Below the pieces are notes generated by a model. It did not search any database. It saw nothing but the letters and a program-made list of their open reading frames with translations, and was not told the DNA's origin. This document shows, piece by piece, positions 27,179-52,240 of a stretch of 64,000 nt of DNA. A program made the translations under genes and the position numbers. The stretch's first letter is position 1. Each line of letters opens with the position of its first letter. The stretch is from Hyphomicrobiales bacterium (GTDB taxonomy: Bacteria > Pseudomonadota > Alphaproteobacteria > Parvibaculales > Parvibaculaceae). The stretch spans positions 124,001 through 188,000 of the forward strand of contig WGND01000003.1 of assembly GCA_016124805.1 (NCBI GenBank), read 5' to 3'.

Positions 27179-30100
27179 TTATTCTCCTGCTGCTGCCAGA
27201 GGCTGCCCGGCGGCGCGGGCAAGCTCCATTTCCTTCAGGGCACGGCGATATTCGACCGGCATGACCTTGCGGAATTTGGGGCAATAGTCTTCCCAGTGAG
27301 CCAGGATTTCCTGGGCTCGCGATGAATTGGTGTAGCGGGCATGGTTCTCGATGAGTTGACGCAGACGCTCCGAGTCAAAACGCGTCATGTCGGCAAAAAC
27401 ATCGACCATGCCATGGCTTTCAAGATCGGCTGACTGGTGACGATGCTTCTCGCTGAGTTCCAGTTCAGAAGCCACCGGCTCCAGATCGACCATGGCCAGA
27501 TTGCAGCGCTGGTCGAACTTGCCGTCCATGTCGAGGACATAGGCGATGCCGCCCGACATGCCGGCGGCGAAGTTGCGACCGGTTTCGCCGAGCACGACAA
27601 CAATGCCGCCCGTCATATATTCGCAGCCATGATCGCCGGTGCCTTCAACAACGGCAATGGCGCCGGAGTTGCGCACGGCGAAGCGTTCACCTGCGACGCC
27701 GCGGAAATAGCATTCGCCGCTGATGGCACCATAGAGAACGGTGTTGCCGACGATGATGCTGTTTTCTGGTACGATCCTGGAGATCGCGGGCGGATAGACG
27801 ATGAGGCGGCCACCGGACAGACCCTTGCCGACATAGTCATTGGCTTCGCCTTCGAGTTCCAGCGTCACGCCCTTGGCGACCCAGGCGCCGAAGCTCTGAC
27901 CGGCGGTGCCAGAAAGCTTCACATGGATGGTGTCATCAGCAAGACCGGCATGGCCGTGGCGCCGTGCAATCATGCCCGACAACATGGCGCCGGTTGTGCG
28001 GTCGGTGTTCCTGACCTTGTAGGCGAGCTGCACAGGCTTTTTGGACTCAATGGCATCCCTGGCGTCGATGATCATCTGGCGATCCAGAATGTCGTCGATC
28101 AGATGATGCTGGCTCTCGGAATTATATATGCTGTCGCCATCCGCCGCCTGGGGCTTGTGGAACAGTTTGGAGAAATCGAGACCCTTGGCCTTCCAGTGTT
28201 CGACAACCTTGCGGCGGTCGAGCATCTGAAGCTGGCCGATCATTTCGTCAAACTTGCGGTAGCCCATCTCGGCCATCAGCTCGCGCACATCTTCGGCGAC
28301 GAAGAAGAAGTAGTTGATGACATGCTCGGGCAGGCCGGTGAAGCGCTTGCGCAGCTCCGGGTCCTGCGTGGCAACGCCGACGGGGCAGGTGTTGAGATGG
28401 CATTTGCGCATCATGATGCAGCCGGCCGCAATGAGCGGCGCGGTGGCAAAGCCAAACTCGTCAGCACCCAGCAGGGCGCCAATGACGACGTCGCGACCGG
28501 TGCGCAGGCCACCATCAACCTGCACGGTGATGCGCGAACGCAGGCGGTTCATGACCAGCGTCTGGTGTGTTTCGGCAAGGCCGATTTCCCAGGGGCTGCC
28601 GGCATGCTTGATGGAAGTGAGCGGCGAGGCGCCGGTGCCACCTTCAAAGCCGGAGATCGTGACATGGTCGGCGCGCGCCTTGGAGACGCCTGCGGCCACC
28701 GTGCCCACGCCCACTTCGGACACAAGCTTCACCGAGATGAGGGCCTCGGGATTTGTGTTCTTGAGGTCGTAGATCAGCTGGGCGAGATCCTCGATCGAAT
28801 AGATGTCGTGATGCGGGGGCGGGGAGATGAGGCCCACGCCCGGCGTCGAGTGGCGCACCTTGGCAATGACGGCATCGACCTTGTGGCCGGGCAACTGGCC
28901 GCCCTCGCCGGGCTTGGCACCCTGCGCCATCTTGATCTGGATCATGTCGGAATTGACGAGATATTCCGTTGTCACACCGAAGCGGCCAGAGGCGACCTGC
29001 TTGATGGCAGAGCGCATGCTGTCGCCATTGGGCATGGGCGTGAAGCGATCGACTTCCTCGCCGCCTTCACCCGTGTTGGAGCGACCGCCAATGCGGTTCA
29101 TGGCAATGGCGAGCGTGGTGTGGGCTTCGCGCGAGATGGAGCCATAGGACATGGCGCCGGTGGCGAAGCGCTTGACGATATTGGCGGCGGGCTCGACTTC
29201 ATCAAGCGGCACCGGCTTGCGGCCCTCATCGGCGGCCTTCTTGATGTCGAAAAGACCGCGAATGGTGAGCATGCGTTCGGCCTGCTCGTCGATGCCCTTG
29301 GCGAAAGCCTTGAACTTGTCGCGGCTGTTGCCACGCACCGCATGCTGCAGGTCGCGGATCGAGTCCGAGTTCCAGGCATGTTCCTCGCCGCGCATGCGCA
29401 CGGCATATTCGCCGCCCACATCCAGCGCATTGCGCAGAACCGGGGCGTCGGAGAAGGCAAGCTTGTGGCGACGCAATGTTTCTTCGGCGATCTCCTCGAT
29501 GCCGACACCTTCGATCATGCTGGCCGTGCCCGTGAAGTAGGCCTTCACGAAATCTGAGCGCAGGCCGACGCCGTCGAAAATCTGGGCGCCGCAATAGGAC
29601 TGATAGGTCGAGATGCCCATTTTGGACATGACCTTGAGCAGGCCCTTGTCGATGGCCTTGATGAAGCGCTTTTCGATTTCATAGCGCGTCAGATGCTCGT
29701 CGAGCCTGGGTGCCAGTTCGGCCAGCGTGTCGAAGGCGAGATAGGGGTTGATGGCTTCGGCGCCATAACCGGCCAGACAGGCAAAGTGATGCACTTCGCG
29801 CGCTTCGCCCGTTTCGACCACAATGCCAACCTTGGTGCGCAGACCGGTGCGGATAAGATGGTGGTGCACAGCAGAGGTGGCGAGCAGGGCAGGGATTGCC
29901 ACACGATCAGCCGAGACGAGACGGTCTGACAGGATGATGATGTTGTAACCCTGCTTGACGGCCTCTTCGGCACGTTCACACAGACGGGCAACCATTTCAG
30001 CCATGGCTTGCGCACCGCGCGCGGCATCATAGGTGATGTCGAGCGTTTCGGTGCGGAAGTGGTTGTCGGCGACTTCACCGATCATGCGGATCTTGTCGAG

Positions 30101-31942
30101 ATCATCATTGGTGAGAATGGGCTGGCGCACTTCCAGACGCTTGACGCCAGACATGCCTTCCAGATCAAGCAGGTTGGGACGCGGGCCAATGAACGAGACC
30201 AGCGACATGACCAGTTCCTCGCGGATCGGGTCGATGGGCGGGTTCGTGACCTGCGCGAAGTTCTGCTTGAAATAGCTGTAGAGCATCTTGGAGCGCGAGG
30301 AGAGCGCGGCGATGGGCGTGTCGGTGCCCATGGAGCCGGTGGCTTCCTGTCCGTCCATGGCCATGGGCGCCAGCAGGAATTTGAGGTCTTCCTGCGAATA
30401 GCCAAAGGCCTGCTGCATGTCGAGAAGGCTTGCCGGGCTCTGAAGCGTCGGTGCGCGCGCTGGCGCGGGCATGTCTTCGAGCACGATCTGGGTGCGGTTC
30501 AGCCACTCCTGATAGGGGTGGAGCGTGGCAAGCTGCGACTTGATCTCGGCGTCTGAGACAATGCGGCCTTCTTCCAGGTCGATGAGGAGCATCTTGCCGG
30601 GCTGGAGGCGCCATTTTTCGACAATGGTTTCCTCGGGCACGGGCAGCACGCCCATTTCAGAGGCCATCATGACGGTGCCGTCTTCGGTGACGAAATAGCG
30701 GGCCGGACGCAGACCGTTGCGGTCGAGCGTGGCGCCGATCTGGCGGCCATCGGTGAAGGCGACAGCTGCCGGACCGTCCCATGGTTCCATGAGGGCGGCG
30801 TGATATTCGTAAAAGGCGCGGCGGTCATTATCCATCAGCGGATTGCCCGCCCAGGCTTCCGGGATCAGCATCATCATGGCGTGGGCGAGCGAATAGCCGC
30901 CCATGACCAGCAGTTCGAGCGCGTTGTCGAAGCAGGCTGTGTCGGACTGCTCATGAACCGCGATCGGCCAGAGCTTCTTGAGGTCATCGCCCAGAATGTC
31001 GGACTGCATGGAAGAATAGCGGGCCTGGATCCAGTTGACATTGCCGCGCTTGGTGTTGATTTCACCATTGTGGCAGACCATGCGGAAGGGATGGGCGAGC
31101 GACCATGTGGGAAAGGTGTTGGTGGAAAAACGCTGATGCACCAGCGCCAGCGCCGTCACCATGTCCGGGTCTGTCAGGTCCTTGTAATAAGGGCCGACCT
31201 GCGCGGCGAGCAGCATGCCCTTGTAGACAATGGTGCGCGAGGAAAAGGAGGGGATGTAAAGGCCACGCGGATTGGCGGAGCCTTCCTGATAGAGCGAATT
31301 GAAGATGCGCTTGCGGATGACGAAGAGCTTGCGCTCGAACGCGTCCTGATCCTTGCAGTTGTCACCACGGCCAACGAAAAGCTGGCGATGGAAGGGCTCG
31401 GTCGGCTTGACCGAATAGCCCAGATCGGCGTTGTCTACGGGGACGTCGCGCCAGCCCAGAAAGACCTGACCTTCTTCGGCCACCATCTTCTCGGTGATGT
31501 CGCAAATGGTCCGGCGGGCCTCATCATCCTTGGGCAGGAACATGAAACCGACGCCATATTCGCCCTCGGGCGGCAGCGTGAAGCCCAGACGCGCGGCTTC
31601 CTTGCGGAAAAACGCATCCGGCATCTGAATGAGAATGCCCGCGCCGTCACCCGCCTTGGGGTCGGCACCGACGGCGCCGCGATGCTCGAGATTTTCGAGA
31701 ATCTTCAGGCCATCTTCGATGATCTTGTGCGACTTGCGGTTGTGGATATTGGCGACAAAGCCAATGCCGCAGGCATCATGCTCGTTGGCGGGGTCATACA
31801 TGCCCTGCGCCTGGGGCAGACCGGCCAGATGCTTGTCGGAGGCACGTTTGACTGTGGCGGCCACGGTTTTAGTCGCGCGGGCTTCGAGGCTCGCAGCGTC
31901 AACCGGTATTCCGCCCGTCAAAATCGGCTTGTCCGTCATCAT
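27179..31942 (-). CDS. gltB: Glutamate synthase (NADPH) large subunit
   Basis: A 1587-residue enzyme making two glutamates from glutamine and 2-oxoglutarate. A propeptide precedes the N-terminal nucleophile Cys58 in [13 protein letters not shown], the class II glutamine amidotransferase. The FMN and 2-oxoglutarate domain has [16 protein letters not shown] and the 3Fe-4S region CHLNTCPVG. The C-terminal beta-helix ends near 1587. The long leader of about 280 bases before the start may be regulated. Two adjacent ATGs at the start leave a one-codon ambiguity. It is the first gene of the gltBD operon. Confidence 0.96.
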
Positions 31943-32224
31943 ATCCTGTCCTTCACCCCTGTTAATCCGCCACCTCACGGCTGGTCGGACCTGGTCTTAT
32001 CTAGTGCGCGTCCCGGCGCGGCCCATCCAGATGCCTGCGGCAAGTGCATCCAGTCGCGCCGATGCATTCGGCTGCCTGGGCATCACCTGCGCAGTGCCGC
32101 CATCCTTGACGGAGCTTTCTGCTGTGGGCCCCGTTTGCCCGGGACAAAGGCTACCAACGGCCTGTCCATACCAACCGCGGACAGGCTTTTTGCCCGGAAA
32201 GGCACATGCCTGTCCAGTGGCCGC

Positions 32225-32254
32225 ATAATGCCATCAGAATGGCCAAAAAATCAA
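32225..32254 (-). promoter_or_regulatory. Candidate sigma-70 promoter of gltBD
   Basis: On the minus strand TTGATT and CATTAT are separated by 18 bases, in the AT-rich stretch upstream of gltB. It would give a leader of roughly 270 bases. Assigned by pattern only. Confidence 0.35.
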
Positions 32255-32392
32255 GTAAATATGGCAGGATTGCTGACCTAATAAAATGTCATCAAAAACA
32301 ATGATTTAACCTGAAATTGGACTCGTTTCGGCCCTATTGGCCGATGGCCTTTTCCGGACATCCGATAACCGAGGCGCAGGCTAGGTAATGTT

Positions 32393-32413
32393 TTGCCCCA
32401 TGGCGAGGGGCAA
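32393..32413. promoter_or_regulatory. Perfect dyad upstream of the bufferin operon
   Basis: TTGCCCC and GGGGCAA form a seven-base perfect inverted repeat around a seven-base spacer, about 150 bases before bufA1. A second small dyad (TCACG-AAAG-CGTGA) follows immediately. The location suits an operator for a metal- or stress-responsive regulator, but no regulator gene is adjacent. Confidence 0.35.
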
Positions 32414-32565
32414 TGTCACGAAAGCGTGAGGGCGCGTGTGATTTCCCGACGCTTCTGTGAATGCAGTTGATTTCACAACCGGAAGGCGGGCGGGCAGTGT
32501 TTGCGGGCGGTCAGGACGGGTTCTGGCCGGTCAAACAATGTTCAAAACCTTCTGGAGATTCCCCC

Positions 32566-32853
32566 ATGTCGAAACTTGCCCTGAGCTCTGCTCTGGCCGT
32601 TGCCGGTGCCATGTCTGCTGCCCTTGCCTTCTCCGCCACGACGGCTTCTGCCGATGATATGGCCAATATGGAGAAATGCTACGGCGTCTCGCTGGCCGGC
32701 CAGAATGAATGCAAGGCCGGTGCTGGCACCACCTGCGCCGGAACGTCCACTGTCGATTATCAGGGCAATGCCTGGAAGCTCGTGCCGGCTGGTACCTGCA
32801 CCAGCATCGAGACGCCCAATGGCCATGGCAGCCTTGAAGCGATGGAAGGCTGA
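32566..32853 (+). CDS. bufA1: Bufferin precursor, BufA1/DUF2282 type
   Basis: A 95-residue precursor with a signal peptide (cleavage expected after ASA, residues 27-29) and a mature part of about 66 residues. It has four cysteines, C38, C49, C57 and C78, in the DUF2282 pattern ([31 protein letters not shown]). Bufferins are ribosomal peptides whose cysteines are converted by an MNIO enzyme, and the mature peptide binds copper in the periplasm (published family knowledge). The MNIO gene follows 26 bases later. The start is ATG with GGAGATTCCCCC ahead; upstream frame extension is not supported. Confidence 0.9.
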
Positions 32854-32879
32854 GGTCAGAGATCAGCGGAGGCAGCGCC

Positions 32880-33809
32880 ATGCAGAAACCAGTATCCCCC
32901 CAATCTGATCTGACGGGCGCTGCCTCCCTGCCTGACCGCGATGGTTTTCACCCGATTCCGGCGCGTGCCGGGATCGGGCTGAAGCCGGCGCATTATGCAG
33001 CGATCCTTGAAACGCAGCCCGATATTGGCTGGTTTGAAGTGCATGCTGAAAACTACATGGGGGCCGGTGGCGCGCCGCATCGCTATCTTGAGACCATCAC
33101 GGCGCGCTATCCGCTGTCGCTGCATGGCGTGGGGCTGTCGCTGGGCAGTGCCGGACCCCTCGACCGGGCCCATGCCAAACGTCTGCGCGCGCTGGTGGAC
33201 CGCTATCGCCCGGCGCTTGTTTCCGAACATCTGGCATGGACGCGATTTGGCGCGACGCATTTCAATGATCTGCTGCCGCTGCCCCTGACTGACGAGACCC
33301 TGGCGCTGGTGCGCGCGCATGTGGACGAGACGCAGCAAATTCTCGGCCGGCAGATGCTGATTGAAAATCCCTCGACCTATGTGCGCTTTGACGGGCCGCA
33401 AATGAGCGAGCCTGACTTTCTGGTGGCGCTTGCCGAGGCCACGGGCTGCGGGCTGCTGATTGACGTCAACAATGTGCAGGTTTCCAGCGTCAATCACATG
33501 CGCGATGCCAGGGCCTGGCTTGATGCCATACCGGGCGCGCTTGTGCATGAAGTGCACCTGGCTGGTCATGCCATCGAAATGATCGGCGGCGAGAGGCTGC
33601 TGATCGACAATCATGGCGGGCGCGTGAGTGATGCCGTGATGGCGCTTTATCGGCGCTTTGTCGAGCGTGTCGGGTCGCAGCCAACGCTGATCGAATGGGA
33701 CATGGATGTGCCCTCTCTTGATGTGTTGCTGGAGGAGGCGGTGCGCGCCGAGCGCGTGCTTGATGCGGTGCGTGATCTTGGTCCGGTGATGGCGGTGCGT
33801 CATGGCTGA
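32880..33809 (+). CDS. bufB: MNIO (DUF692) bufferin-modifying oxidase
   Basis: A 309-residue member of the multinuclear non-heme iron oxidase family (DUF692). Characteristic motifs are WFEVHAENYMGAGG, SEHLAW, LIENPSTYV, LIDVNNVQVSSVNH and TLIEWDMDVPSLDVLLEE. They supply the His, Asp and Glu metal ligands of a TIM-barrel site. In bufferin systems it converts precursor cysteines to thiooxazoles. It starts at an ATG with GGAGG, and overlaps bufC by eight bases, so the three genes are one operon. Confidence 0.93.
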   Translation: MQKPVSPQSDLTGAASLPDRDGFHPIPARAGIGLKPAHYAAILETQPDIGWFEVHAENYMGAGGAPHRYLETITARYPLSLHGVGLSLGSAGPLDRAHAKRLRALVDRYRPALVSEHLAWTRFGATHFNDLLPLPLTDETLALVRAHVDETQQILGRQMLIENPSTYVRFDGPQMSEPDFLVALAEATGCGLLIDVNNVQVSSVNHMRDARAWLDAIPGALVHEVHLAGHAIEMIGGERLLIDNHGGRVSDAVMALYRRFVERVGSQPTLIEWDMDVPSLDVLLEEAVRAERVLDAVRDLGPVMAVRHG

Positions 33810-34587
33810 GGCGTGCGCGATCTCCCTTGCCGATTTTCAGTCGCGCTTTGCCGCAGGGATTTGCGGTGAGGCTGATGTCAATGATCTGTTGACGGATTGT
33901 CCGCGTGTGCCGCGCGAAATGCGATTTGCCGTCTATCGCAACAATGTGCATGTGAGCCTTGTTGATGCGCTGGCGGCAAGTTTTCCCGCCGTGCAGCGCA
34001 TGGTGGGCGATGATTTCTTTCGCGGCGCGGCGCGGGTGTTTCTTTCGCAGGGCCTGCCGCAACAGGCCTCGCTGATCGGCTATGGCGAAAGCTTTCCCGC
34101 CTTTCTTGCCGCCTTCGAACCGGCAAGGGGCCTCACCTATCTGCCCTTTGTGGCGCGGCTGGAACTGGCCTGGCTTGCAGCCTATCACGCGGCGGATGCG
34201 GTGCCGCTGGTGGCGGCGGATTTTGCTGCCGTGCCGGGTGATGCCATGGCGGCGCTGCGTTTCGAGTTGCATCCCTCGCTGCAACTGGTCGAAAGCCCGA
34301 TGCCGGTGCTGGAACTGTGGCGACGGCATATTGAGGACGAAGTGATTGCGCCAATGCAGCTTGCGGTCGAGCGCGAAGTGCTGATGGTGCTGCGGCCCGA
34401 GGCACAGGTGGTGCTGCATGCGCTGAGCGCAGGCGAGGCGGCGATGCTGCGCGCGCTCGCCCAAGGCGCCAGCCTCGGCGCGGCGGCGGACGCAGCTGCG
34501 CCTCACAGCGGCTTTGATCTGACACAAGCCCTGCTTCGACTTATTTCCGGCGGTGTTTTGACCGCCTTTCAATTTCCTGAAGGATGA
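33802..34587 (+). CDS. bufC: BufC/HvfC-type partner (DUF2063)
   Basis: A 261-residue partner protein. The N-terminal DUF2063 domain (residues about 10-100) has RFAVYRNNVHVSLVDALAASF and MVGDDFFRGAARVFLS. The C-terminal half is helical and ends in a winged-helix-like segment. Such partners hold or present the precursor to the MNIO enzyme. It overlaps the MNIO gene upstream and the DoxX gene downstream (ATGA), which is strong evidence for a single translational unit. Confidence 0.9.
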   Translation: MAEACAISLADFQSRFAAGICGEADVNDLLTDCPRVPREMRFAVYRNNVHVSLVDALAASFPAVQRMVGDDFFRGAARVFLSQGLPQQASLIGYGESFPAFLAAFEPARGLTYLPFVARLELAWLAAYHAADAVPLVAADFAAVPGDAMAALRFELHPSLQLVESPMPVLELWRRHIEDEVIAPMQLAVEREVLMVLRPEAQVVLHALSAGEAAMLRALAQGASLGAAADAAAPHSGFDLTQALLRLISGGVLTAFQFPEG

Positions 34588-35057
34588 AAATGATGATGCG
34601 TGATCTGTCCCGTCATGTGCTGCGTGTGACAGCTTTGTTCGACGCCATTCCGGCGAGCCTGATTGCGGTGATCGCACGTCTGGCCGTCTTTCTGATCTTC
34701 TTCATGTCGGCGCGCACCAAGGTGGAGGGGCTGATCACGCTGAAGGCGAGCACCTTCACGCTCTTCCAGTATGAATATGCGCTGCCGCTGATCCCCTACA
34801 AGCTCGCGGCCTATATGGCGACCTATGCCGAGCACACATTTTCGATTTTGATCCTGATTGGTCTGGCAACACGGTTCAGTGCGCTCGCCCTTCTGGGCAT
34901 GACGGCGGTGATCGAGATTTTCGTCTATCCCGATGCCTATGTGGTGCATCTGAGCTGGGCGGCGATGCTCGTCTATCTGATGGCGCGGGGCGCAGGTATT
35001 TTGTCGCTCGACCATCTGGTTTTGCACCATTTTGGTTCACAATCGCGCAAGTCCTGA
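34584..35057 (+). CDS. DoxX-family membrane protein of the bufferin operon
   Basis: A 157-residue membrane protein with four predicted helices and DoxX-like text (RLAVFLIFFMSARTKVEGL, EHTFSILILIGLATRFSALAL, SWAAMLVYLMARGAG). DoxX-type proteins often accompany bufferin operons, where their role is unknown. The start overlaps the bufC stop by four bases. Confidence 0.88.
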   Translation: MKMMMRDLSRHVLRVTALFDAIPASLIAVIARLAVFLIFFMSARTKVEGLITLKASTFTLFQYEYALPLIPYKLAAYMATYAEHTFSILILIGLATRFSALALLGMTAVIEIFVYPDAYVVHLSWAAMLVYLMARGAGILSLDHLVLHHFGSQSRKS

Positions 35058-35133
35058 CCTGTCACTTCAGCATTCATTAACGGCACAGGCGTAGCTTGGC
35101 CCTATCCGGGGGTCCTCTGGTGAAGGTCAGGTC

Positions 35134-35562
35134 ATGAGCTCGTACAAAGAAAAAAACAGCGGCGGTTTTGATGATGCGCTGGCAAGGGCAGAAGCCGCCA
35201 TTGCCGAGCTGAAGGAGAGCTATCATGCGCAGCTGGGTCTGGACATTGCCGAGCTTGAGACGGCCTATGGCGAACTCAGTGACCCCGCGACCAGCAGTGC
35301 AGCCCTGAAAACGCTGGCGAGCCTTGCCCATAACATCAAAGGGCAGGGCGGCTCGTTCGGCTATGATCTGGCAACGGAAATCGGGGGCGCGCTTTCTGAT
35401 TTCCTGCGTCAGCGCCCGGCACCTGCGGGACGTGCGCGCCGCATCATCCATCTTTACATCCGTATGCTGCGGATCGTCTTTGAGCGAAAGCTGGTGGAAG
35501 ATGGCGGCTCGATGGGCCGGAGCCTGCGCCTCAAGCTGAAGCGCCTGAACAACGTTCTCTAA
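35134..35562 (+). CDS. Orphan histidine-phosphotransfer (Hpt) domain protein
   Basis: A 142-residue helical protein. The Hpt phosphorylation motif is present with H66 in LAHNIKGQGGSFGY, embedded in a four-helix region of residues 15-110. A basic tail follows. No histidine kinase or response regulator is encoded next to it (cpdR lies 18 kb away), so its partner is unknown. It might serve a phosphorelay elsewhere. The AAAAAACAGC-rich N-terminus is low in complexity. Confidence 0.8.
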   Translation: MSSYKEKNSGGFDDALARAEAAIAELKESYHAQLGLDIAELETAYGELSDPATSSAALKTLASLAHNIKGQGGSFGYDLATEIGGALSDFLRQRPAPAGRARRIIHLYIRMLRIVFERKLVEDGGSMGRSLRLKLKRLNNVL

Positions 35563-35564
35563 TC

Positions 35565-35583
35565 TTTTGTGACATTTTGTGCG
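35565..35583 (+). promoter_or_regulatory. Direct repeat upstream of the CoA-ligase/GNAT gene
   Basis: TTTTGTG occurs at 35565 and again at 35575, a period of 10 bases, as TTTTGTGAC then TTTTGTGCG. The same nine-base word recurs upstream of two other genes in the window. Possible protein-binding half-sites. Confidence 0.3.
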
Positions 35584-35662
35584 CTGCGGCGAAGTGCGCC
35601 TGACGCGAGCGCGTCATTTCGCCTATGCTTGCCGAACTGACCTCAAATGAAAAGAGCCCCCC

Positions 35663-38353
35663 ATGACGATCCGCAATCTTGATGCGATGTTTGCGCCCGG
35701 CTCGGTGGCGCTGATCGGCGCGCGCGAAAAAGCGGGTTCCGTCGGGCGGGTTCTGCTGCGCAATCTCACGACATCGGGTTTTGCCGGTCCCGTCTGGGCG
35801 GTGAACCCGCATGGCGGCGACATTGACGGCATGGAAGTCTATCGCGACATTGCAAGCCTGCCCGAGGCGCCCGACCTTGCCGTTATTGCGACGCCGCCGC
35901 GCAGCATACCGGCGCTGATCAGCGAATTGGGCGAGCGCGGCACGCAGGCCGCCGTTGTCATCACGGCAGGCTTTGGCGAGCTTGGCGCGGAGGGCCATGA
36001 ACTCGAAGCGCAGATGCTGGAAGCGGCGCGACCGCATCTGCTGCGTATTGTCGGGCCCAATTGCCTTGGCACGATGGTGCCGGGTGTGGGGCTCAACGCC
36101 TCCTTTGCGCATCTGCCGCCGCTCAAGGGCGATATCGCCTTTGTCTCGCAATCGGGCGCGGTGGTGACGGCTGTGCTCGACTGGGCGACAAGCCGGGGCA
36201 TCGGCTTTTCGCATATCGTGTCGCTGGGCGGCATGGCGGATGTCGATTTCGGCGACATGCTGGATTATCTCGCTCATGATCCCAAGACCCATTCGATCCT
36301 GCTTTATATCGAATCCGTGAAGGATGCGCGCAAGTTCATGTCGGCTGGCCGGCAGGCGGCGCGTCTGAAACCGGTGCTGGTGATCAAGTCGGGCCGTCAT
36401 GCGGCAGGCGCCAAGGCGGCACGTTCGCATACGGGCGCCCTGGCGGGATCGGATGCCGTTTATGATGCCGCCTTCCGCCGCGCAGGCATGTTGCGGGTGA
36501 TGGATGTGGATGATCTTTTCGAGGCGGTGGAGACATTGTCGACGCGGCCGGAAAAGCGGCCGATCACGGGCGACCGTCTGGGCATTCTGACAAATGGCGG
36601 CGGGCTTGGCGTGCTCGCGACGGACTATCTGATGGATCTGGGCGGGCATCTTGCCGAGCTCTCACCCGGGACCATCGCAACACTCGACAAGGTGCTGCCC
36701 GCCACATGGAGCCGCGGCAATCCGGTCGATATTATCGGAGATGCCGGGGCGGATCGCTATACCGCGTCCATGGGTGCGCTGCTCGCCGACAAGAATATTG
36801 ATGCGCTGCTGGTGATCAATTGTCCGACGGCGGTGGTGGATAATGTGTCGGCGGCAGACGCGGTGGCTGATGCCGCCGAGACCAGCCGCAAACCGATCGT
36901 GACAAGCTGGCTGGGCGATCAGGGGGCGCAGGGTGCGCGACGCCTGCTGCTGGGGCGGCGCATCCCGACCTATGACACGCCCTCGCAGGCGGTTCATGCC
37001 TTCATGGTGCAGGTGGAATATCAGCGCAACCAGCGGCTGCTGATGGAAATACCGCCTGCCGGTCCCTCGCTGCCGCAGCGCGATCTGCAGGCGGCACGCG
37101 CCATCATTGAGACAGCGCTGGCTGAAAAACGCGAATGGCTGAGCGAGGCGGAAGCGAAATCACTGCTGGCGGCCTATGGTGTGCCCATTGTCGAGACGCG
37201 CATTGTGGACGGCGTGGCATCAGCCGTCGCCTGCGCGGAGGAGATCGGCTATCCCGTGGCGCTCAAAATTCTCTCGCCCGACATCACCCACAAGACCGAT
37301 GTGGGCGGTGTGGTGCTGGATCTTGAAAATGCCAAAGCCGTTGAAAAAGCGGCAACGGCCATGCTCGCCAAAATCGGCAAGGCGATGCTGACCGCCCGGC
37401 TTGACGGCTTTACCGTGCAGCACATGGTGAGCAAGCCCTCTGCCTTTGAGCTTATTCTCGGCATTATTGATGACGAGACGTTTGGGCCTGTGATCCTGTT
37501 TGGTCACGGCGGCACGGCGGTGGAGGTGGTCAAGGACAAGGCGATGGCGATGCCGCCGCTGAACCGGGTGCTGGCCGAAGATCTGATCCGCACGACGCGG
37601 ATCGCCAAATTGCTGGAAGGTTATCGCGGGCGCCCGCCCGCTGATTTTGATGCGATTGCGCTCTCCCTGATGGCGTTGGGTGACCTGGCCGCCGACAATC
37701 CGGAAGTTGCCGAGCTCGACATCAATCCGCTGCTTGCCGATCATGACGGCGTGGTGGCACTGGATGCACGCGTGCGGATCAAACCGGCGCGTGGCATCGG
37801 CACGGAGCGCTTTGCCGTGCGGCCCTATCCGGGCGGTCTGGAATCTGAGCTGCATGACCGGCATGGCACGGCCTATCCGATGCGCCCGATCCGGCCGGAA
37901 GATTCCACGCTGATCGACGATATGCTGGCGCATACCGACCCGGAGGATTTGCGGCTGCGGTTTCTGTCGCCGCTGCGGCGCCTGCCCCGCCAGTTGGCCG
38001 CGCGTCTGACGCAGATCGATTATGACCGCGAGATGGCCTTTGTCGTGTTCTCCGATGAGACGCGGAGCGAGGTTGCTGCCGTCGGGCGTCTTTCGGAAGA
38101 CCCGGATCGGGAGCGGGCGGAATATGCGATCCTTGTGCGCACCGACAAGCATGGCATCGGCATGGGCTATGCGCTGATGAAGCATCTCATTCATTTCGCG
38201 TCGGAACGCGGGGTGGGTGAAATTTTCGGGCATGTGCTGCGCGAGAACCGCTCCATGCTGGCGCTTTGCGATGATCTGGGCTTTACGCGGCACAGCTTTG
38301 AAGAGCCGAGCCTTGTGGAAGTGCGCCTGCCACTGACCCTGCCGCCAAAATAA
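35663..38353 (+). CDS. Acetate-CoA-ligase-like / GNAT fusion, possible protein acetyltransferase
   Basis: An 896-residue fusion. The N-terminal NDP-forming acyl-CoA-synthetase-like half has a CoA-binding domain (1-130), a succinyl-CoA-ligase-like part with His256 in RSHTGALAGS, and an ATP-grasp portion (about 490-700) with GHGGTAVEVVKDKAMAMPP. The C-terminal GNAT domain (about 735-890) has RTDKHGIGMGYALMKHLIH. Pat-type enzymes of this build acetylate metabolic enzymes such as acetyl-CoA synthetase. Orientation CoA-ligase first, GNAT last is the common one. Confidence 0.9.
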   Translation: MTIRNLDAMFAPGSVALIGAREKAGSVGRVLLRNLTTSGFAGPVWAVNPHGGDIDGMEVYRDIASLPEAPDLAVIATPPRSIPALISELGERGTQAAVVITAGFGELGAEGHELEAQMLEAARPHLLRIVGPNCLGTMVPGVGLNASFAHLPPLKGDIAFVSQSGAVVTAVLDWATSRGIGFSHIVSLGGMADVDFGDMLDYLAHDPKTHSILLYIESVKDARKFMSAGRQAARLKPVLVIKSGRHAAGAKAARSHTGALAGSDAVYDAAFRRAGMLRVMDVDDLFEAVETLSTRPEKRPITGDRLGILTNGGGLGVLATDYLMDLGGHLAELSPGTIATLDKVLPATWSRGNPVDIIGDAGADRYTASMGALLADKNIDALLVINCPTAVVDNVSAADAVADAAETSRKPIVTSWLGDQGAQGARRLLLGRRIPTYDTPSQAVHAFMVQVEYQRNQRLLMEIPPAGPSLPQRDLQAARAIIETALAEKREWLSEAEAKSLLAAYGVPIVETRIVDGVASAVACAEEIGYPVALKILSPDITHKTDVGGVVLDLENAKAVEKAATAMLAKIGKAMLTARLDGFTVQHMVSKPSAFELILGIIDDETFGPVILFGHGGTAVEVVKDKAMAMPPLNRVLAEDLIRTTRIAKLLEGYRGRPPADFDAIALSLMALGDLAADNPEVAELDINPLLADHDGVVALDARVRIKPARGIGTERFAVRPYPGGLESELHDRHGTAYPMRPIRPEDSTLIDDMLAHTDPEDLRLRFLSPLRRLPRQLAARLTQIDYDREMAFVVFSDETRSEVAAVGRLSEDPDRERAEYAILVRTDKHGIGMGYALMKHLIHFASERGVGEIFGHVLRENRSMLALCDDLGFTRHSFEEPSLVEVRLPLTLPPK

Positions 38354-38355
38354 AA

Positions 38356-38379
38356 GGAGCGCCCCTTGCGGGACGCTCC
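38356..38379 (-). terminator. Terminator of the Hsp20 gene
   Basis: GGAGCG and CGCTCC flank a short loop with one mismatch in the stem. On the minus strand a T-rich tract (TTTTATTTT) follows, which suits termination of the Hsp20 transcript; the plus-strand tail is weaker. It could act in both directions. Confidence 0.7.
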
Positions 38380-38400
38380 CTCATTTTCTTCTCCGACGGA

Positions 38401-38874
38401 TCAGTCTGCGGCGCTGGCAAAACCTTCAATGGATTTGCCGACTGATTTTTGGGGAGCGCCCTGGGAAATCTTGATCTGGCGCGGCTTCAGTTCTTCGGGA
38501 ATGCGGCGATGCAGGTCGACATGCAGCAGGCCGTTTTCCAGATGGGCGCCATTGACCTCGACATGGTCGGCGAGCTGGAAACGACGCTCGAAGCTGCGCC
38601 CGGCAATGCCGCGATAGAGATATTTGGTGCTTTCGGTTTCCTCGCGCTTGCCTGAAATGGTGAGCACATTCTGCTTCACCTCAAGGTTGAGATCGTCGCT
38701 GGCAAAACCGGCCACCGCCATGGTGATGCGGTAATCCTGCTCGCCTGTGCGCTCGATATTATAGGGGGGATAGGTGGGCTGGTCTGTGTCGCGCGTCACG
38801 CTGTCGAGCAGCGAATGCAGCTGGTCAAAACCAACGGTGGAACGGTAAAGGGGCGAAAAATCGAAACTACGCAT
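38401..38874 (-). CDS. Hsp20-family small heat-shock protein
   Basis: A 157-residue alpha-crystallin-domain chaperone holding unfolded proteins during heat stress. The core (about 36-130) includes DLNLEVKQNVLTISGKRE, YLYRGIAGRSFERRFQLADH and ENGLLHVDLHRRIPEE. A C-terminal IKISQGA-type tail is present, without an obvious IXI motif (IKI is the closest). The ATG has AGGAGG seven bases upstream. A ROSE-type thermometer hairpin covers that ribosome site, and an RpoH-type promoter lies about 120 bases ahead; both are listed separately. Confidence 0.95.
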   Translation of the reverse strand: MRSFDFSPLYRSTVGFDQLHSLLDSVTRDTDQPTYPPYNIERTGEQDYRITMAVAGFASDDLNLEVKQNVLTISGKREETESTKYLYRGIAGRSFERRFQLADHVEVNGAHLENGLLHVDLHRRIPEELKPRQIKISQGAPQKSVGKSIEGFASAAD

Positions 38875-52085: not shown

Positions 52086-52202
52086 GATGCAATGCCATTG
52101 TTGCATTGCGGCATTGGTTGAGTTTACTCCTGATGCCGCAGCCCTTCCTGGGCGTTTCCTCCCTAGACTTGGGCCCTGGTTTTTACCAGGGCCCCTTTTT
52201 TT
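52086..52202 (+). ncRNA. Probable trans-acting small RNA
   Basis: A plus-strand intrinsic terminator at 52171-52202 has no plus-strand gene upstream, so it should end an RNA gene. The proposed RNA has a 5' hairpin (GCAATG at 52089 with CATTGC at 52104), then a pyrimidine stretch TTTCCTCCCT (52155-52164) complementary to Shine-Dalgarno sequences, then the terminator. This layout is typical of Hfq-type alphaproteobacterial sRNAs. The 5' end is uncertain and may lie up to 60 bases further upstream. Confidence 0.65.
52171..52202 (+). terminator. Strong intrinsic terminator without an upstream coding gene
   Basis: A perfect ten-base stem GGGCCCTGGT/ACCAGGGCCC with loop TTTT, followed by C and seven T residues on the plus strand. 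On the minus strand there is no T-run, so it does not serve the flanking minus-strand genes. Confidence 0.9.
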
Positions 52203-52240
52203 GTGCCAAGGCCATCATCATCTGGCTTGGTGGGCGGGTG

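Follow-up and report, generated by a model that had tools for sequence, protein, structure and literature searches.

The 64,000-nucleotide stretch of DNA analyzed here (the window) carries an operon of four genes, bufA1-bufB-bufC-doxX, which extends from 32566 to 35057 on the forward strand (Table 1). The original prediction had given coordinates for these genes that all hold, and the overlaps that it had reported between bufB and bufC (8 bases) and between bufC and doxX (4 bases) were confirmed. Within the interval 27179–38874, the operon is flanked by a divergent upstream gltB-like gene (1599 aa, glutamate synthase large subunit by sequence) and by a downstream HSP20 gene. A similar long gltB-like gene, a buf operon, and an HSP20-like gene are found at a Roseibium locus (L079), suggesting that this arrangement reflects old synteny. 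The window also contains a suhB/mmgR small RNA at 52134–52209 (RF00519, 79 bits).

Table 1. Genes and candidate regulatory features of the buf locus, in window coordinates.
Feature	Position	Strand	Description
Dyad TTGCCCC-N7-GGGGCAA	32393..32413		Perfect, not conserved
Conserved dyad TCACGAAAGCGTGA (TCAC-N6-GTGA)	32416..32429		Proposed operator; conservation upstream of bufA1
Promoter-proximal element TGTGAATGCAGTTGATTTCAC	32456..32476	+	CGTGA.../GTTGATTTC in relatives; 40 bp from start of conserved dyad
bufA1	32566..32853	+	Buf1/DUF2282 precursor, 95 aa; PF10048, 89.1 bits, E=1.9e-25
bufB	32880..33809	+	MNIO (DUF692) bufferin maturase, 309 aa; PF05114, 339 bits, E=1.8e-101
bufC	33802..34587	+	DUF2063 + RRE-like partner (PME type 1), 261 aa; PF09836, E=4.5e-22, above cut-off
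doxX	34584..35057	+	DoxX-family membrane protein (HvfX-like), 157 aa; PF07681, E=3.1e-12

All four cysteines of BufA1 (Cys38, Cys49, Cys57, and Cys78) fall in columns that are invariant among the 95 relatives with bufA1, and its N-terminus has the appearance of a Sec-type signal peptide, as judged by eye and not with a predictor. Together with the PF10048 match, these features bear out the earlier description of a secreted, four-cysteine precursor. An NCBIfam search with BufA1 returned no match to a BufA1 model and only a weak match to BufA2. The maturase BufB belongs to the Pfam family MbnB_TglH_ChrH and scored 369.7 bits against the NCBIfam equivalog model MNIO_BufB (NF050167), above the cut-off of 310. 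It aligns with its PDB relatives 3BWW, MbnB, and TglH, and residues H82, E116, H117, E162, N163, D195, N198, H226, D243, H245, and E272 are at least 97% conserved among 96 homologues; these His, Glu, Asp, and Asn residues are those expected for a putative metal site. Since a sequence search of the PDB with BufC found nothing, we used fold prediction for this protein. The resulting AlphaFold model (alignment of 24 homologues, pLDDT 88.9) found its best solved matches in TglI (8HCI/8HI7, TglHI holoenzyme; TM ∼0.58) and NGO1945 (3DEE), and its predicted fold is that of an MNIO partner protein with an RRE-like part. BufC scored under the HvfC equivalog cut-off of NCBIfam, and DoxX reached 43.1 bits against NF050144 (matur_HvfX_fam), under the cut-off of 80. 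The components by which a Buf1 cluster is recognized, namely a DUF2282 precursor, a BufB-type MNIO, a DUF2063 partner with an RRE, and DoxX in the core, are all found at the locus, and the published Buf1 core gene set likewise takes in DoxX (PMC12452194). Profile searches found one MNIO gene and one DUF2282 gene in the genome, whose relatives place the host among the Alphaproteobacteria. Judged by its sequence, the operon is a Buf1 (bufferin-1) operon of the usual kind, with a gene set and layout that are already known.

The layout was compared across 96 related loci, the window included, which were selected solely on their MNIO protein. In 95 of the 96, bufA1 comes before bufB; a bufC on the same strand was found in every locus, and a doxX on the strand of bufC in 85. 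In eight loci (L050, L055, L064, L080, L094, L097, L099, and L103) bufC is ∼1 kb away, with this extra length lying between bufB and bufC. With start codons set by a simple rule, so that individual gaps may be off, bufB and bufC overlap in 64 of 96 loci and bufC and doxX in 51 of 85, the commonest length of the latter overlap being 4 bases. The compact, translation-coupled layout ending in a fourth gene, doxX, which the original prediction had emphasized, is the usual arrangement, the founding Caulobacter operon included.

That founding operon, CC3254-CC3257 of Caulobacter vibrioides/crescentus (CCNA_03363-03366; PMC3511200), comprises the same four families, arranged identically from a DUF2282 precursor to DoxX as the last gene; however, it adjoins sigF-nrsF and has a GTAACC-N16-CGAA promoter, whereas the present locus lacks this promoter and its genome has no recognizable NrsF. 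The same gene order, including DUF692 and DUF2063, is found in the four-gene operon SMb20530-SMb20527 of Sinorhizobium meliloti (PMC6180224), a target of RpoE7 (ECF16) whose promoters have been mapped and are of the ECF16 type; a divergent rpoE7-ecfR7 pair is present there but not here. In Cupriavidus metallidurans and Legionella pneumophila, GIG operons also bring together DUF2282, DUF692, DUF2063, and DoxX genes and have a copper- and gold-responsive promoter, but they are regulated in another way, and the Legionella copy is carried on a conjugative element. Finally, hvfABCX of Haemophilus influenzae (oxazolin/captophorin) likewise combines a precursor gene with an MNIO, an RRE partner, and a DoxX-like gene, and its product carries copper-binding 5-thiooxazoles, but its precursor contains EGKCG repeats in place of the DUF2282 sequence found here.

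For Caulobacter Buf1, both the chemistry and the copper binding are reported in the literature: the central cysteines are modified, the outer pair forms a disulphide, and the thiooxazoles bind copper (PMC12452194), with related work assigning a 5-thiooxazole to the whole group (PMC12668002). By analogy, we infer that the present copy performs the same chemistry and copper binding. The Sec signal of BufA1 would double as the leader, as in published bufferin work, and BufC would supply the RRE-like docking domain to a BufB-BufC complex that would oxidize the central Cys49 and Cys57 to 5-thiooxazoles. The peptide would then reach the periplasm, where Cys38 and Cys78 would form a disulphide and the thiooxazoles would bind Cu(I)/Cu(II) and thereby buffer copper that is present in excess. 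The small secreted peptide of the operon probably soaks up excess copper. DoxX would serve as an inner-membrane accessory; a 2025 study raised, as a suggestion only, that it may help in copper binding, and a 2026 preprint still terms the DoxX-like HvfX uncharacterised (PMC13419390), in keeping with the earlier remark that DoxX is little explained. Of the original reading of the locus as a copper-buffering RiPP operon, the identity is upheld by the protein families and fold as well as by the order of the genes and their conserved residues, while the emphasis on the layout falls away, as does the dyad considered next.

This dyad, TTGCCCC-N7-GGGGCAA, had been named as the candidate for control of the operon. 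When the 587-base intergenic region was shuffled, ∼20% of the resulting sequences held at least one dyad with 7-bp arms, and the window's dyad was found in none of the other 95 bufA1 upstream regions. It is probably a product of chance, and we rejected it as an operator, being both unconserved and at chance level.

A different dyad, TCAC-N6-GTGA, is conserved upstream of bufA1. It was first spotted by eye in the upstream regions of the window's own taxonomic family and counted afterwards. Exact copies occur within 350 bp upstream of bufA1 in 26 of the 96 loci (window included), against 0.72 expected from shuffles. The fairer set for measuring enrichment is that of the other families, because the loci of the window's family are non-independent and were the source of the motif; there, 12 exact dyads were counted in 26,950 bp of upstream sequence versus 9 in all other parts of the same loci (918,000 bp), an enrichment of ∼45-fold (binomial p∼7e-14). 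Among family relatives with full upstream sequence, 13 of 15 carry the exact dyad. Many other alphaproteobacterial bufA1 loci have a degenerate form of the dyad or none, and the same holds for the loci examined from beta- and gammaproteobacteria. A genome of the same genus (G036) harbors a more diverged buf operon (L019, BufB 52% identical) without the dyad, and this operon is possibly of separate origin.

The dyad flanks a SigF-type promoter in many Alphaproteobacteria, and its distances from the promoter are helically phased. At nine loci of other families, the dyad starts 18–19 or 29–30 bp before the start of the −35 element of a SigF-type promoter, placing the −10 element at 39–41 or 50–51 bp from the dyad, i.e., at two positions one helical turn apart. 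The window's family has no SigF-type promoter at this place, but a conserved CGTGA element (TGTGA in the window), which may be a −10 or an upstream part of a TTGA-type promoter, lies 40–42 bp from the dyad start at all 14 loci with an exact dyad. Conservation and spacing together point to the dyad as a putative operator, which may respond to copper and which a second regulator, beyond SigF, would read. Transcription would start downstream of this operator, bound by a DNA-binding protein, and the SigF-type promoter seen next to the dyad in other lineages is missing in this one. More broadly, we tentatively propose, at somewhat less than an even chance, that alphaproteobacterial Buf1 operons share a new operator, TCAC-N6-GTGA, whose reader acts with SigF where SigF/NrsF is present and without it in lineages such as this one, and which possibly serves a wider copper/redox regulon. 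A literature search on SigF/RpoE7 promoters, with subscription papers mostly outside its reach, returned no description of a palindrome or inverted repeat; the dyad is possibly undescribed, such silence being weak evidence of novelty.

The exact dyad occurs at 24 sites genome-wide versus 10 for a reversed control pattern, with many of the 24 inside genes. Sites lie upstream of a multicopper oxidase gene (L175:4478-6586 in G000:C12, near an ArsR-rhodanese regulator), a DUF547-VTT-flavin oxidoreductase operon (L178:1097-4150 in G000:C14), and a DUF1223 gene, these copper/redox contexts having been picked post hoc. In several family genomes the dyad stands beside what appears, from the protein starts, to be the same DUF547-VTT operon. 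These contexts would suit a CusR/CopR-like response regulator of the OmpR family that would bind the dyad and switch on the operon in response to copper, as would the CopR/CusR box TGACA-N4-TGTCA (PMC12428095), whose half-site spacing equals that of the dyad, and the presence in the genome of two CopR-like regulators scoring just under the TIGR01387 cut-off. However, the conserved site is TCAC-N6-GTGA and not the CopR/CusR box, its half-site being TCAC where theirs is TGAC, the copper-linked contexts were chosen after the fact, and neither CopR-like gene carries an exact dyad or adjoins recognizable copper genes in the stretch seen, on which grounds we set both aside as readers. A response regulator adjoining a dyad in G011 was likewise discarded, its orthologue in the present genome (L190) having no such site. 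We regard control by a CusR/CopR-like regulator as doubtful, though the best placed of the alternatives. When ten dyad-bearing loci of other genera were inspected by eye for a common regulator gene nearby, some had sigF-nrsF and none other was noticed.

The upstream block could instead be a promoter for another sigma factor, of the form GTGTG-N16-CGTGA or with a TTGA-type −35, with the dyad forming part of that promoter. Measured from the dyad, the CGTGA element does lie where the SigF −10 is found (40–42 bp compared with 39–41 or 50–51 bp), but the distances between the dyad and complete SigF promoters fall into two classes separated by one helical turn, which argues against the dyad being a −35 or −10 element in its own right, and the putative −35 is poorly conserved in the window's family. 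We consider this account unlikely, slightly more so than that of a CusR/CopR-like reader. An EF-hand-linked ECF sigma factor (L022) and an RpoE/ChrR-type pair (L023) were tried as the alternative sigma factor and dropped, neither having matching promoter evidence.

The original prediction was correct that no sigma-factor or metal-regulator gene adjoins the operon, which is a common state among its relatives: NrsF lies within ∼6 kb in about half of the 79 loci on genome contigs and is missing from that distance in the other half. A search for NrsF (PF06532) in the 99.8% complete genome found no match, with the Caulobacter control positive, and NrsF was present in 4 of 39 other genomes of the family. 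No GTAA[CA]-N16-18-CGAA sequence was found within 350 bp upstream of bufA1. In other families, the SigF-type promoter (GTAAC-N16-CGAA) occurs at 35 of 40 loci with NrsF nearby versus 6 of 37 without (Fisher p∼1e-10, relatedness uncorrected); NrsF and the promoter thus co-occur across loci, and here both are missing. Regulation as in Caulobacter, by a SigF/NrsF (ECF16) pair with its genes at another place in the genome, would be suggested by the published operons of the same layout, which are SigF/RpoE7 targets (PMC3511200, PMC8224329, PMC6180224), and by the loci with NrsF nearby, but with neither a recognizable NrsF nor a SigF-type promoter here, and with the two so closely associated among relatives, we rejected it as highly improbable. 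At the level of sequence, the dyad and its spacing persist in this lineage without NrsF or a SigF-type promoter.

Taken as a whole, a Buf1 operon of the usual kind, with the chemistry of its family, DoxX as an accessory, and control through the TCAC-N6-GTGA dyad as operator, is the explanation that we hold with considerable confidence. With this operon, a large family that was characterized recently gains a further member, and the role of DoxX is the remaining biochemical question of that family. If the dyad is a real operator, it would offer a handle on how bufferin operons are switched on without SigF/NrsF, and would suggest a second input where that pair is present.
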